Assembly (NCBI GenBank): GCA_029864335.1
Contig: JAOTTS010000008.1
Span: 1-64,000, forward strand
Direction: 5' to 3'
DNA length: 64,000 nucleotides
Source: Candidatus Nitrosopumilus sp.
GTDB lineage: Archaea; Thermoproteota; Nitrososphaeria; Nitrososphaerales; Nitrosopumilaceae
Below the pieces are notes generated by a model. That model ran no database searches, was not told the origin of the DNA, and saw only the letters and a list, made by a program, of their open reading frames with translations. The translations under genes and the position numbers were made by a program. Below are positions 5,645 through 51,492 of the stretch, in pieces; position 1 is the stretch's first letter; each line of letters starts with the position of its first letter.

Positions 5645-7129
5645 TTGTTAGAAATTACTTCAACCCCATTGGTATTAATTGCAATATTGGGTACTGTTGG
5701 CGTTATTCTTCCGATTATCAGTATTGCGAGAAAAGAAAAAGGGTCTAATTCATTTTATGCAGTAATTGCATTTGCAGCATTAATTGTATCCATGGGATAT
5801 GTTGGATATCAATTCATTAACGAAAATGTTTCTGCATCTGCTCTTTTCTCAGATGATGTTATAGTCGATGATGCATTTGGTGGATTCTTTGCAATAGCAA
5901 TGTTAATTGTTGCTTTGTTCACAACAGTTGGTTCTTTCAATTACATGAGAAAACATAATTCTCCTGCTGTATACTATTCTCTAATTTTACTTGCAACTAT
6001 TGGTATGGTGTTAGTAGCATACTCTACAGATTTGGTTATGTTGTTTGTTGCGTGGGAGCTAATGAGTATTCCAACATATGTTTTAGTTGGATTTATGAAA
6101 AAGAACCCAAGCTCAAATGAAGCTGCTCTAAAATATTTCTTGTTTGGAGCATTATCGTCTGCAATCATAGTTTACGGAATTTCTATTTCCTATGGATTAA
6201 CTGGTTCTACAAATATTGGAGAGGTGATTCAAGGTTACTCAACACTTGATCCGTCTCTGTTGCCTCTTGCATTACTTTCTGTTGGAATGTTTATTGCAGG
6301 ATTTGGATTCAAAATGGGACTTGTACCTTTCCATCAATGGCTTCCTGATACCTATGAGGGTGCACCTTCACCAATAACTGCACTCCTTGCAGCAGCAACA
6401 AAGAAGGCTGGATTTGCCGCTACAATCAGAATTGTAGTTCTGGGAATGGTAGTTCTAAATCTTGATTGGACATTAGCCCTTGGTATTATTGCTGTGATGA
6501 CAATGACTATAGGAAATGTTGCTGCAATAATGCAAAAGAATCTCTCAAGAATGTTAGCATATTCCAGTATTGCACATGCAGGATACATTTTGATTGGCCT
6601 TGCAGTTGCACCATATAGCTCACTTGGATTACAAGGTTCTTTGTATCAAATCATGAATCACGCCGTAATGAAAGGAGCAGCTTTCATTGCAATTGCAGGA
6701 ATTGTAACAACTCTTGCTGTAACTAATATTGATAAACTCAAAGGACTTGGAAGAAGAATGCCAATCACTGCTCTAGGTTTGGTAATTGCATTGTTTGCAT
6801 TGGCTGGAATTCCTCCACTTTCAGGATTTTGGAGTAAACTGATGTTATTTGGAAGTGCATTAGATGCAAGTTCTGCATTATGGTGGGCACCATGGCTTGC
6901 AATTGCAGGAGTTCTTAACAGTGCATTATCTCTTGCTTACTATGGTTGGATTACACGAAAAATGTACTTTGAGGGTGAAACAGAAAAAAGAGTTGCAGAA
7001 CCAAAATCTATTATCGCAGTTATGATCTTCTCAACAATCTTCTTAGTAGGATTCGGTGTATATCCAGATCCATTAATTAAATTTGTAGAATTTGCAACAC
7101 CGGTAATTAGTTTAGGCCTTATGCCTTAA
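5645..7129 (+). CDS. nuoN: NADH-quinone oxidoreductase subunit N (antiporter-like)
   Basis: Third antiporter-like subunit of complex I (494 aa). It shows the family Glu in LFVAWELMSIPTYVLVGFMK, the lysine-containing GFKMGLVPFHQWLPDTYEGAPSP and the MLAYSSIAHAGYILIGL segment. The start is TTG at 5645: a strong ribosome binding site (AGGAGAT, 5631-5637) lies just upstream, while the nearby ATG at 5640 is in a frame that stops after three codons. It is the last gene of the nuo run; its end overlaps the convergent polyprenyl synthetase by 11 bp. Confidence 0.95.
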   Translation: MLEITSTPLVLIAILGTVGVILPIISIARKEKGSNSFYAVIAFAALIVSMGYVGYQFINENVSASALFSDDVIVDDAFGGFFAIAMLIVALFTTVGSFNYMRKHNSPAVYYSLILLATIGMVLVAYSTDLVMLFVAWELMSIPTYVLVGFMKKNPSSNEAALKYFLFGALSSAIIVYGISISYGLTGSTNIGEVIQGYSTLDPSLLPLALLSVGMFIAGFGFKMGLVPFHQWLPDTYEGAPSPITALLAAATKKAGFAATIRIVVLGMVVLNLDWTLALGIIAVMTMTIGNVAAIMQKNLSRMLAYSSIAHAGYILIGLAVAPYSSLGLQGSLYQIMNHAVMKGAAFIAIAGIVTTLAVTNIDKLKGLGRRMPITALGLVIALFALAGIPPLSGFWSKLMLFGSALDASSALWWAPWLAIAGVLNSALSLAYYGWITRKMYFEGETEKRVAEPKSIIAVMIFSTIFLVGFGVYPDPLIKFVEFATPVISLGLMP

Positions 7130-8859: not shown

Positions 8860-8933
8860 GGGCCCGTAACTCAGCTTGGTAGAGTAACCGGCTCATAACC
8901 GGTGAGCCAAGGGATCGAAGCCCTTCGGGCCCA
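8860..8933 (+). tRNA. tRNA with CAT anticodon (tRNA-Ile2 or elongator Met)
   Basis: Cloverleaf: acceptor GGGCCCG/CGGGCCC, anticodon stem ACCGG/CCGGT around CTCATAA, T-stem AAGGG/CCCTT, discriminator A. It lacks the GGG/CCC anticodon stem of initiators, so it is an elongator: either Met or the Ile2 species whose C34 becomes agmatidine. The acceptor resembles archaeal tRNA-Ile2 as I remember it, so I lean to Ile2. The T-loop reads ATCGAAG, with A instead of T at position 54. The 3' end is repeated at 21511-21529 and is the likely integration site of the island. Confidence 0.9.
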
Positions 8934-8935
8934 TA
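8917..8935 (+). other. attL: tRNA 3' end used as integration site
   Basis: GAAGCCCTTCGGGCCCATA, the T-loop/acceptor end of the CAT tRNA plus two flanking bases, recurs as a direct repeat at 21511-21529 with a single C-to-T change. The tRNA remains intact at this end. An integrase fragment begins 43 bp downstream. Confidence 0.75.
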
Positions 8936-8978
8936 CCCTAACTAATGCTTTATCTGGTCCCATACTCTATATTCCATT

Positions 8979-50304: not shown

Positions 50305-50745
50305 TTAGCCTTGAAATTTTGATTTACAATTACTGCAATAACCTGATAATTCAAAACTACTTTTTAGAATCAGATATTTTGACTTTCTAGCAGCCTTTAC
50401 CTGAATCTCTTTTAGTGAATCTTCATCAATATCGTCTATTTTTCCACAGTTCATGCATACTATATTGATGTGTTCATCTGTATGAGCATCAAATCTTGCT
50501 TCTCCTTCTACATCCATTTCATTTACTAGTTTTTTCTCTTTTAGAAGATCAAGTGTCTTGTATACTGTTGACAGACTTACCATGGGGTATCTTTTTCTTA
50601 TAACTTTATGAATAAGTTCTGCACTAGGATGATCTTCAGTTTTTAGTAGATAATTCACTATTGCAATTCTTTGAGGTGTGATTCTAAATCCTTCATCCCT
50701 TAATGATGCGACGATCTGTTCTATCTGCTGCATGTCATTATTCAC
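50305..50745 (-). CDS. Fur-family metal-dependent repressor
   Basis: 146 aa. Winged helix (GFRITPQRIAIVNYL, KRYPMVSLSTVYKTLDLLKE), then the dimerisation half with metal ligands: ARFDAHTDEHINIVCMNCGK and the C-terminal CSNCK zinc pair. Could sense Fe, Zn or peroxide (Fur, Zur or PerR types cannot be separated here). It is transcribed away from a four-gene mini-operon across a palindrome-rich 88-bp gap, so it is the obvious candidate regulator of both directions. A 6-bp hairpin overlaps its stop (50298-50312). Confidence 0.92.
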   Translation of the reverse strand: MNNDMQQIEQIVASLRDEGFRITPQRIAIVNYLLKTEDHPSAELIHKVIRKRYPMVSLSTVYKTLDLLKEKKLVNEMDVEGEARFDAHTDEHINIVCMNCGKIDDIDEDSLKEIQVKAARKSKYLILKSSFELSGYCSNCKSKFQG

Positions 50746-50784: not shown

Positions 50785-50826
50785 TTCCTAATTAATAATA
50801 ACACTTAATTAGGAACCATTCCTAAT
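50785..50826. promoter_or_regulatory. Palindromic operator between fur and the mini-gene operon
   Basis: Two nested inverted repeats: TTCCTAATTAA (50785-50795) with TTAATTAGGAA (50805-50815), and ATTAGGAA-CCA-TTCCTAAT (50808-50826). Further TATTCC half-sites lie at 50766-50771 and 50783-50788. They cover the expected TATA/start regions of both divergent units. Likely Fur-family sites; the assignment is inferred from position. Confidence 0.75.
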
Positions 50827-50833
50827 AATATAC

Positions 50834-51004
50834 ATGCAAATACAGACAATTCAGGATAAGCAATCAGAATTAAACAAAAAAACTGTAAACAACGCAATTA
50901 GGATTTGTGTTAATTGTGGTAACATAGCTGTCAAAATACAAAATCATGGTATATTTTGTAAAGATTGTGGCTCATTTTTTGATTTGGAGGAAAAAAATGA
51001 GTGA
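50834..51004 (+). CDS. Zinc-ribbon mini-protein (56 aa), first gene of the mini-operon
   Basis: MQIQTIQDKQSELNKKTVNN, then RICVNCGNIAVKI, FCKDCGSFFDLEE: two CxxC pairs form one zinc ribbon. The ATG lies 8 bp after the 19-bp palindrome, so the transcript is likely leaderless or nearly so. It overlaps the next gene by 8 bp. No family recognised beyond the ribbon. Confidence 0.75.
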   Translation: MQIQTIQDKQSELNKKTVNNAIRICVNCGNIAVKIQNHGIFCKDCGSFFDLEEKNE

Positions 51005-51170
51005 TAATTCCTGCAGAAGTATATGTGGATACTATGATATAAAGTCTGAACATAGAAATTTGCAAAATAACATATTCAGAAAGTATTGCTCTGTATGTAA
51101 TCTTGAATTGATTTCAAGATATTCTAGTTGTCCTTGTTGTCACAAATCATTTGGAAGTAGTGGAAAATAA
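50997..51170 (+). CDS. Cysteine-rich mini-protein (57 aa), second gene
   Basis: Reads SCRSICGYYDIKSEHRNL, KYCSVCNLELI, SCPCCHKSF: C-x3-C, C-x2-C and CPCC, seven cysteines. It is a paralog of the third gene with the same three blocks. GGAGG at 50986-50990 provides a ribosome binding site within the first gene. It ends TAATG with the third gene start. Probably a metal-binding (Zn or Fe) protein. Confidence 0.75.
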   Translation: MSDNSCRSICGYYDIKSEHRNLQNNIFRKYCSVCNLELISRYSSCPCCHKSFGSSGK

Positions 51171-51349
51171 TGGGATATGTCTGTAAAGGCGTATGTGATA
51201 GTCTTAAAGGAGAAAAAATCCCAAATGGTTCCAAATATGGATATGGACAAAAGAGATGCACCCTGTGCAGTATTTTTATGACTGTTTCTGGTTTTCGTTG
51301 TCCTTGCTGTAGTGCTCTTTTGAGGACAAAATCAAGGGGTAGAAAATAA
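51170..51349 (+). CDS. Cysteine-rich mini-protein (59 aa), third gene
   Basis: YVCKGVCDSLKGEKIPNG, RCTLCSIFMTV, RCPCCSALLRTK: the same C-x3-C / C-x2-C / CPCC layout as the second gene, with a basic tail (RTKSRGRK). I have seen this layout in thaumarchaeal small proteins of unknown role. Starts one base inside the second stop, ends one base inside the fourth start. Confidence 0.75.
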   Translation: MGYVCKGVCDSLKGEKIPNGSKYGYGQKRCTLCSIFMTVSGFRCPCCSALLRTKSRGRK

Positions 51350-51492
51350 TGTCCAAAAGAGTTACAATAGTTCTTGAAGATGCTATGATAAAGAAACTAC
51401 GTGAAAGACAGGTAAAATTGATCAAGGAATCTGTAGGATCTGTAAGTTTCTCTAGCGTTGTAAATGAAGCATTACGTCAACATTTCAAATAA
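51349..51492 (+). CDS. Ribbon-helix-helix mini-regulator (47 aa), fourth gene
   Basis: MSKRVTIVLEDAMIKKLRER gives the N-terminal beta strand and helix 1, SVSFSSVVNEALRQHFK gives turn and helix 2: a minimal Arc/MetJ-type fold. Overlaps the third gene (TAATG). A relative lies in the island at 11347-11493. Likely binds DNA as a dimer and may autoregulate the operon. Confidence 0.75.
   Translation: MSKRVTIVLEDAMIKKLRERQVKLIKESVGSVSFSSVVNEALRQHFK

Follow-up and report, generated by a model that had tools for sequence, protein, structure and literature searches.

What do four overlapping genes encoding proteins of only 47 to 59 aa do in an ammonia-oxidizing archaeon, and to which signal does the Fur-family regulator gene that faces them respond? 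In the window (the whole 64,000-nucleotide stretch of DNA analysed here), an initial annotation had described four mini-genes divergent from a Fur-family gene, namely a zinc ribbon, two paralogous cysteine-rich proteins, and a ribbon-helix-helix (RHH) protein, and had proposed metal-controlled expression of small metal-binding proteins with a local autoregulator. The layout itself was recovered as described: four ORFs were located at 50834-51492, overlapping by 8 nt between ORF1 and ORF2 (ATGAGTGA) and by 1 nt each (TAATG) between ORF2 and ORF3 and between ORF3 and ORF4, and the divergent gene is a real Fur-family member by its PF01475 match (Table 1). The regulator was taken from the ATG at 50733, which is kept as the start in relatives, while a longer version from GTG 50745 (146 aa) is not conserved. 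Elsewhere in the window, ARAGORN called a tRNA-Met (+) and a tRNA-Arg (-) that overlap on opposite strands at 8860-8952, one of which is probably spurious.

Table 1 Genes and putative regulatory elements of the divergent locus, in window coordinates
Feature	Start	End	Strand	Description
PerR-like Fur-family regulator	50305	50733	-	142 aa from ATG 50733; PF01475, E 1.2e-30
Putative Fur TATA box	50755	50763	-	centre 26 bp upstream of Fur ATG; TATTTAATA / TATTTATAG conserved in aligned relatives
Putative operator box A	50775	50791	.	TTGATAACTATTCCTAA; in this genome the left half is degenerate and the right half intact; each start codon 42-58 bp away
Putative ORF1-operon TATA-like element	50804	50811	+	centre ~26 bp upstream of ORF1 ATG, placed by archaeal promoter geometry; conserved CTTAATTA/TTTAATTA
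Putative operator box B	50809	50825	.	TTAGGAACCATTCCTAA; one mismatch to TTAGGAATnATTCCTAA; between ORF1 TATA and start
ORF1	50834	51004	+	56-aa C4 zinc ribbon (ICVNCG...CKDC); syntenic in ~30 relatives; dN/dS 0.07-0.17
ORF2	50997	51170	+	57-aa seven-cysteine protein, CPCCH subfamily; 36/250 genomes; dN/dS 0.16-0.38
ORF3	51170	51349	+	59-aa seven-cysteine protein, CPCC family; dN/dS 0.03-0.15
ORF4	51349	51492	+	47-aa RHH-like protein, accessory; right after ORF3 in a minority of relatives

The cysteine motifs bear out the zinc ribbon and the cysteine-rich pair, with CxxC...CxxC present in ORF1 and the pattern C-x3-C / C-x2-C / CPCC shared by ORF2 and ORF3. We consider ORF1-3 real genes because they are conserved in ~35 genomes and their dN/dS ratios are mostly low (0.03-0.20, with one ORF2 pair at 0.38), indicative of purifying selection. 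Nor did the genes lack co-occurrence in relatives, a result that would have spoken against a module: among 250 Nitrosopumilaceae genomes, 37 carry the Fur homologue, 36 carry the ORF2 subfamily, and 35 carry both (Fisher p 3.5e-39, uncorrected for phylogeny, so that relatedness inflates the p-value). The three mismatches are a locus at a contig edge (G220), a Fur-dps arrangement without ORF2 (G179), and a locus for which no Fur was found (G114). The order Fur (divergent), ORF1, ORF2, ORF3 recurs in ~30 fetched loci from several genera, and ORF2 occurs as a single full-strength copy per genome, at this locus type only. The cassette is patchy in the window's genus (20 Fur-positive genomes) yet recurs as a unit. 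Synteny and co-occurrence thus uphold an operon that is conserved opposite Fur, has operators of its own, and encodes small proteins that probably bind metal.

ORF2 and ORF3 belong to a larger family, hereafter CPCC, in which seven cysteines (C5, C9, C30, C33, C44, C46, and C47) are invariant across 55 aligned members including the ORF2 group, and the two are therefore paralogues. The family was detected in 246 of 250 Nitrosopumilaceae and in 298 of 400 genomes of the class, with strong scores in four families only (f1, f2, f3, and f5) and marginal matches in the other families of the 400-genome set; these four presumably represent the ammonia-oxidizing clade, with f3 as the Nitrososphaeraceae. 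This genome alone holds 24 copies at E <= 0.001. Searches of Pfam, NCBIfam, PHROGs, and the PDB returned no significant match to the family, and none of the 55 members exceeded a curated Pfam or NCBIfam cutoff, the weak sub-threshold matches being confined to single members. Confidence in the AlphaFold models was moderate (mean pLDDT 75 and 70), and fold searches with them (best E 1.0 for ORF3 and 0.14 for ORF2) yielded just weak zinc-finger and ribosomal-ribbon matches.

Where the paralogues sit offers hints on function. Some of their genes overlap or closely trail those of a TFB (PF00382), a MazE/AbrB-like protein, zinc ribbons, or one another (L107, L108, L112, L109, L110, and L123, on contigs C1, C53, C58, C52, C21, and C3 of this genome, G000), and a gene for a CDC48_N-like small protein is also among the neighbours. 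One universal, unannotated paralogue with a basic, variable tail (G000:C13:29822-29986; L115:1204-1668; L160-L168) has 100% identity over its first 59 residues among Nitrosopumilus species and in a further genus, and retains 92% identity in genomes that appear to be Nitrososphaeraceae. This linkage and this near-invariance favour a role at the core gene-expression machinery over the competing idea of metal or thiol buffering. Whether CPCC proteins are accessory subunits of the transcription (or translation) machinery, with the present pair recruited to a peroxide response, is a suggestion we hold tentatively, as plausible though short of probable: the linked cases are a handful without a background rate, and no fold or complex match emerged.

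That the small cysteine-rich proteins are instead metallothionein-like metal sinks seems improbable to us. In favour of it, they have three invariant cysteines beyond the need of one zinc site, and they share an operon with dps in relatives. However, cysteine makes up just ~12% of ORF2 and ORF3 (7 of 57-59 residues), a ribbon-like knuckle (CxxC...CPxC) is conserved along with a basic LRTK tail in the ORF3 group, and full identity of one paralogue over 59 residues between genera is unlike a simple sink.

Between the divergent genes, the nested palindromes of the initial annotation prove to be a Fur-type box of 17 bp, TTAGGAATnATTCCTAA, that is present twice, with box A midway between the Fur and ORF1 start codons. 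Two matches at <=2 mismatches were found in the window against 0.10 expected from shuffles, and the boxes lie 34 bp apart in every relative in which both are recognisable, with no other spacing from 10 to 60 bp seen among the fetched relatives. Column conservation averaged 0.88 and 0.87 in boxes A and B, respectively, and 0.92 in the stretch separating them, as compared with 0.59 in the Fur leader; operator columns are 85-98% conserved versus 59% in the adjacent leader, with the right half of box A at 98%. Further, the pair is near-exclusive to this regulator: the exact core TAGGAATnATTCCTA occurred at 24 sites in 250 genomes, 17 of them between this Fur gene and its divergent neighbour, while a control pattern gave 0 sites in the same search; of the seven sites elsewhere, six were read, and five of these fell within long frames, the sixth being located where a short one ends. 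The palindromes are present above chance and cover the ORF1 promoter, as initially described, whereas their claimed extension over both promoters does not hold, since the putative Fur TATA box lies outside them.

TATA-like elements 26 bp upstream of both start codons suggest that the Fur and ORF1-operon mRNAs are leaderless, and the location of box B between TATA and the start of the small-gene operon is one expected of a repressor site. A sigma-70 promoter scan was set aside as inapplicable to archaea. A wider regulon in this genome was considered from 60 sites at <=3 mismatches, where the reversed pattern gave 16, and rejected; we claim none beyond the divergon because, this locus aside, the lone site within 1 mismatch falls within an ORF and no common function links those 2-mismatch sites that were read.

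What signal might these operators relay? The top NCBIfam match of the regulator is PerR, the bacterial peroxide sensor type, yet at 136.7 bits against an equivalog cutoff of 180, and its nearest PDB chain is B. subtilis PerR (2fe3). Residues H37, D85, H91, and D104 and both CxxC motifs are invariant in 34-35 of 35 aligned homologues. Asp104, the canonical H2O2-sensitivity residue in Fur-family proteins (PMC8638851), is present in all 35, and the Cys4 site (C96, C99, C136, and C139) is kept in every homologue reaching those positions. Position 93, where PerR has the metal ligand H93, is Asn in all 35, as it also is in S. suis and S. pyogenes PerR (PMC3458967). Position 61, which sets box specificity (PMC8638851), is Lys in 34 of 35, so that the Asn of PerR and the Arg of Fur are both absent; this fits a box that is neither a PerR nor a Fur box, and TTAGGAATnATTCCTAA indeed differs from the canonical PerR box TTATAATnATTATAA. 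The lone exception at position 61 is a second, broken copy in this genome (G000:C4:31086-31466; L093:4581-4970), in which frameshifts appear to have scrambled the region of the DNA-recognition helix and which is likely a decaying duplicate. Because Asn61 and the canonical box are lacking and the NCBIfam score stays below its cutoff, we do not claim formal PerR membership, though we read the locus as one that would work like PerR.

Gene neighbourhoods in relatives point the same way. In four genomes (G032, G034, G179, and G230) dps is the first gene behind the box pair: in G230 the Fur gene faces it across the 34-bp pair, in G179 across a weaker pair, and in G032 and G034 dps is followed by ORF1, CPCC genes, and ORF2. 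Another locus (G114:C6; L098:2191-3711) reads dps, ORF1-like, ORF3-like, ORF2, with a 143-aa membrane-like ORF between the ORF1- and ORF3-like genes. The Fur homologue also faces dps in two genomes that are probably Nitrososphaeraceae, and PF00210 was confirmed in two of the relatives' Dps proteins. A distant homologue, 34% identical and from a non-AOA genome, faces an AhpC/1-Cys peroxiredoxin gene. With dps in the same place in relatives, the locus looks like a peroxide/iron defence unit; in S. suis, for example, PerR represses dpr, which encodes a Dps homologue (PMC3458967). In this genome dps is absent from the operon, and the sole Dps match lies on another contig (G000:C52:5028-5489), with no box within 2 mismatches near it; a CPCC gene at 6385-6549 (L105) stands ~0.9 kb away, likewise without a Fur box, which makes this another case of Dps and CPCC genes in proximity. 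Our reading is that in most Nitrosopumilus the divergon either no longer has a dps gene here or was always without one.

The interpretation that we favour, and consider probable with moderate confidence, is a self-contained PerR-like peroxide/iron divergon of ammonia-oxidizing archaea, in which the repressor acts through paired boxes over a small-protein operon. It draws on Asp104, on dps in the operon of relatives, and on the peroxiredoxin gene beside the distant homologue; Lys61, a box unlike known PerR and Fur boxes, the NCBIfam score of 136.7 (below 180), and the position of dps outside the operon here weigh against it. The main contender on the signal is a metal-limitation module, in which a true Fur or Zur would derepress zinc-sparing or iron-limitation proteins when Fe or Zn is scarce. 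That site is common to Fur-family members, the ORF1-3 products are rich in cysteine and resemble zinc ribbons, and Lys61 is nearer the Arg of Fur than the Asn of PerR, but position 104 is Asp rather than Glu in 35/35, the top family and PDB matches are to PerR, and the partner genes in relatives and beside the distant homologue are dps and a peroxiredoxin gene with no uptake genes, which makes such a module unlikely. The metal-controlled expression initially proposed is thus upheld in part, with general metal limitation a less likely signal than peroxide/iron.

The last gene is a lesser part of this picture. One ORF4 paralogue matched Pfam RHH_3 at 6e-4, a weak match, and ORF4 itself had no significant match to family models, so an RHH identity is at most hinted at. 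Its supposed role as local autoregulator is not supported, because ORF4 is missing from most relatives, is the fastest-evolving of the four genes, and the operator tracks Fur, not ORF4; for a gene so optional across relatives, core membership of the operon was also rejected. A toxin-antitoxin or other selfish cassette with the RHH protein as antitoxin, although suggested by very small overlapping genes, an RHH-like gene, and patchy distribution (20 Fur-positive genomes in the genus), is hardly credible given that most loci lack the RHH gene while ORF1-3 remain, that no toxin family matched, and that ORF1-3 are under purifying selection and linked to dps.

Under the PerR-like reading, the Fur protein charged with Fe(II) or Mn(II) would bind as dimers to the two 7-1-7 boxes 34 bp apart. 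At box B, between TATA and start, it would block transcription of the small-gene operon, while box A would make binding stronger and may also adjust expression of the regulator gene. The repressor would be released by peroxide, via iron-catalysed oxidation at the metal site, or by metal loss, whereupon the operon, headed by dps in some lineages, would be expressed. The products of ORF1-3 would then be made as a translationally coupled set of small thiolate-zinc proteins, most likely acting with the gene-expression machinery or binding metal freed by oxidation, and Dps, encoded elsewhere in this genome, would take up iron. More speculatively, and in our view doubtfully, CPCC may be an essentially AOA-specific seven-cysteine zinc/redox class attached to the basal transcription/translation apparatus, with one universal near-invariant member and many paralogues each wired to a regulator, such that under peroxide stress the PerR-like repressor would bring in a pair dedicated to it, in addition to Dps or in its place.

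Catalase is missing from most marine ammonia-oxidizing archaea, and peroxide tolerance differs among them (PMC6593220). In the literature searched we found no AOA peroxide regulator, AOA PerR/Fur, or CPCC family, an absence that is not proof. For these organisms, the locus offers a putative repressor that can be named, an operator defined to the base, and a small set of targets, and it points to an unannotated, AOA-wide small-protein family whose copy number in a genome can reach about two dozen. Of the two, the family is the more novel and the less well explained, whereas the regulator is a variant of the known PerR type.

Compared with bacterial PerR-Dps systems (B. subtilis PerR/MrgA and Streptococcus PerR/dpr), the locus is alike in Asp104 and the Cys4 zinc site, in a 7-1-7 inverted repeat with an AATnATT core, and in dps/dpr as a target, here in relatives; the H93-to-N change is shared with streptococcal PerR. 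It differs in the half-site (TAGGAAT here, TTATAAT for PerR), in the specificity residue (Lys rather than Asn), in paired boxes 34 bp apart with small zinc-ribbon and CPCC genes as targets, and in what are probably leaderless archaeal divergent promoters. ORF4 resembles RHH/CopG-type regulators in size and in its N-terminal KRVTI strand pattern, though it lacks a significant family match of its own. The small proteins share small size and cysteine richness with metallothioneins, but at ~12% Cys ORF2 and ORF3 lack the very high content of that class and have an ordered, ribbon-like pattern, with a basic tail in ORF3. With the Pfam zinc ribbons A2L_zn_ribbon and Zn_ribbon_3, all of whose matches were below Pfam cutoffs, ORF1 and the C-terminal half of ORF2 and ORF3 share the CxxC...CxxC knuckles, to which ORF2 and ORF3 add a C-x3-C and a third C-terminal Cys, for seven invariant cysteines overall.
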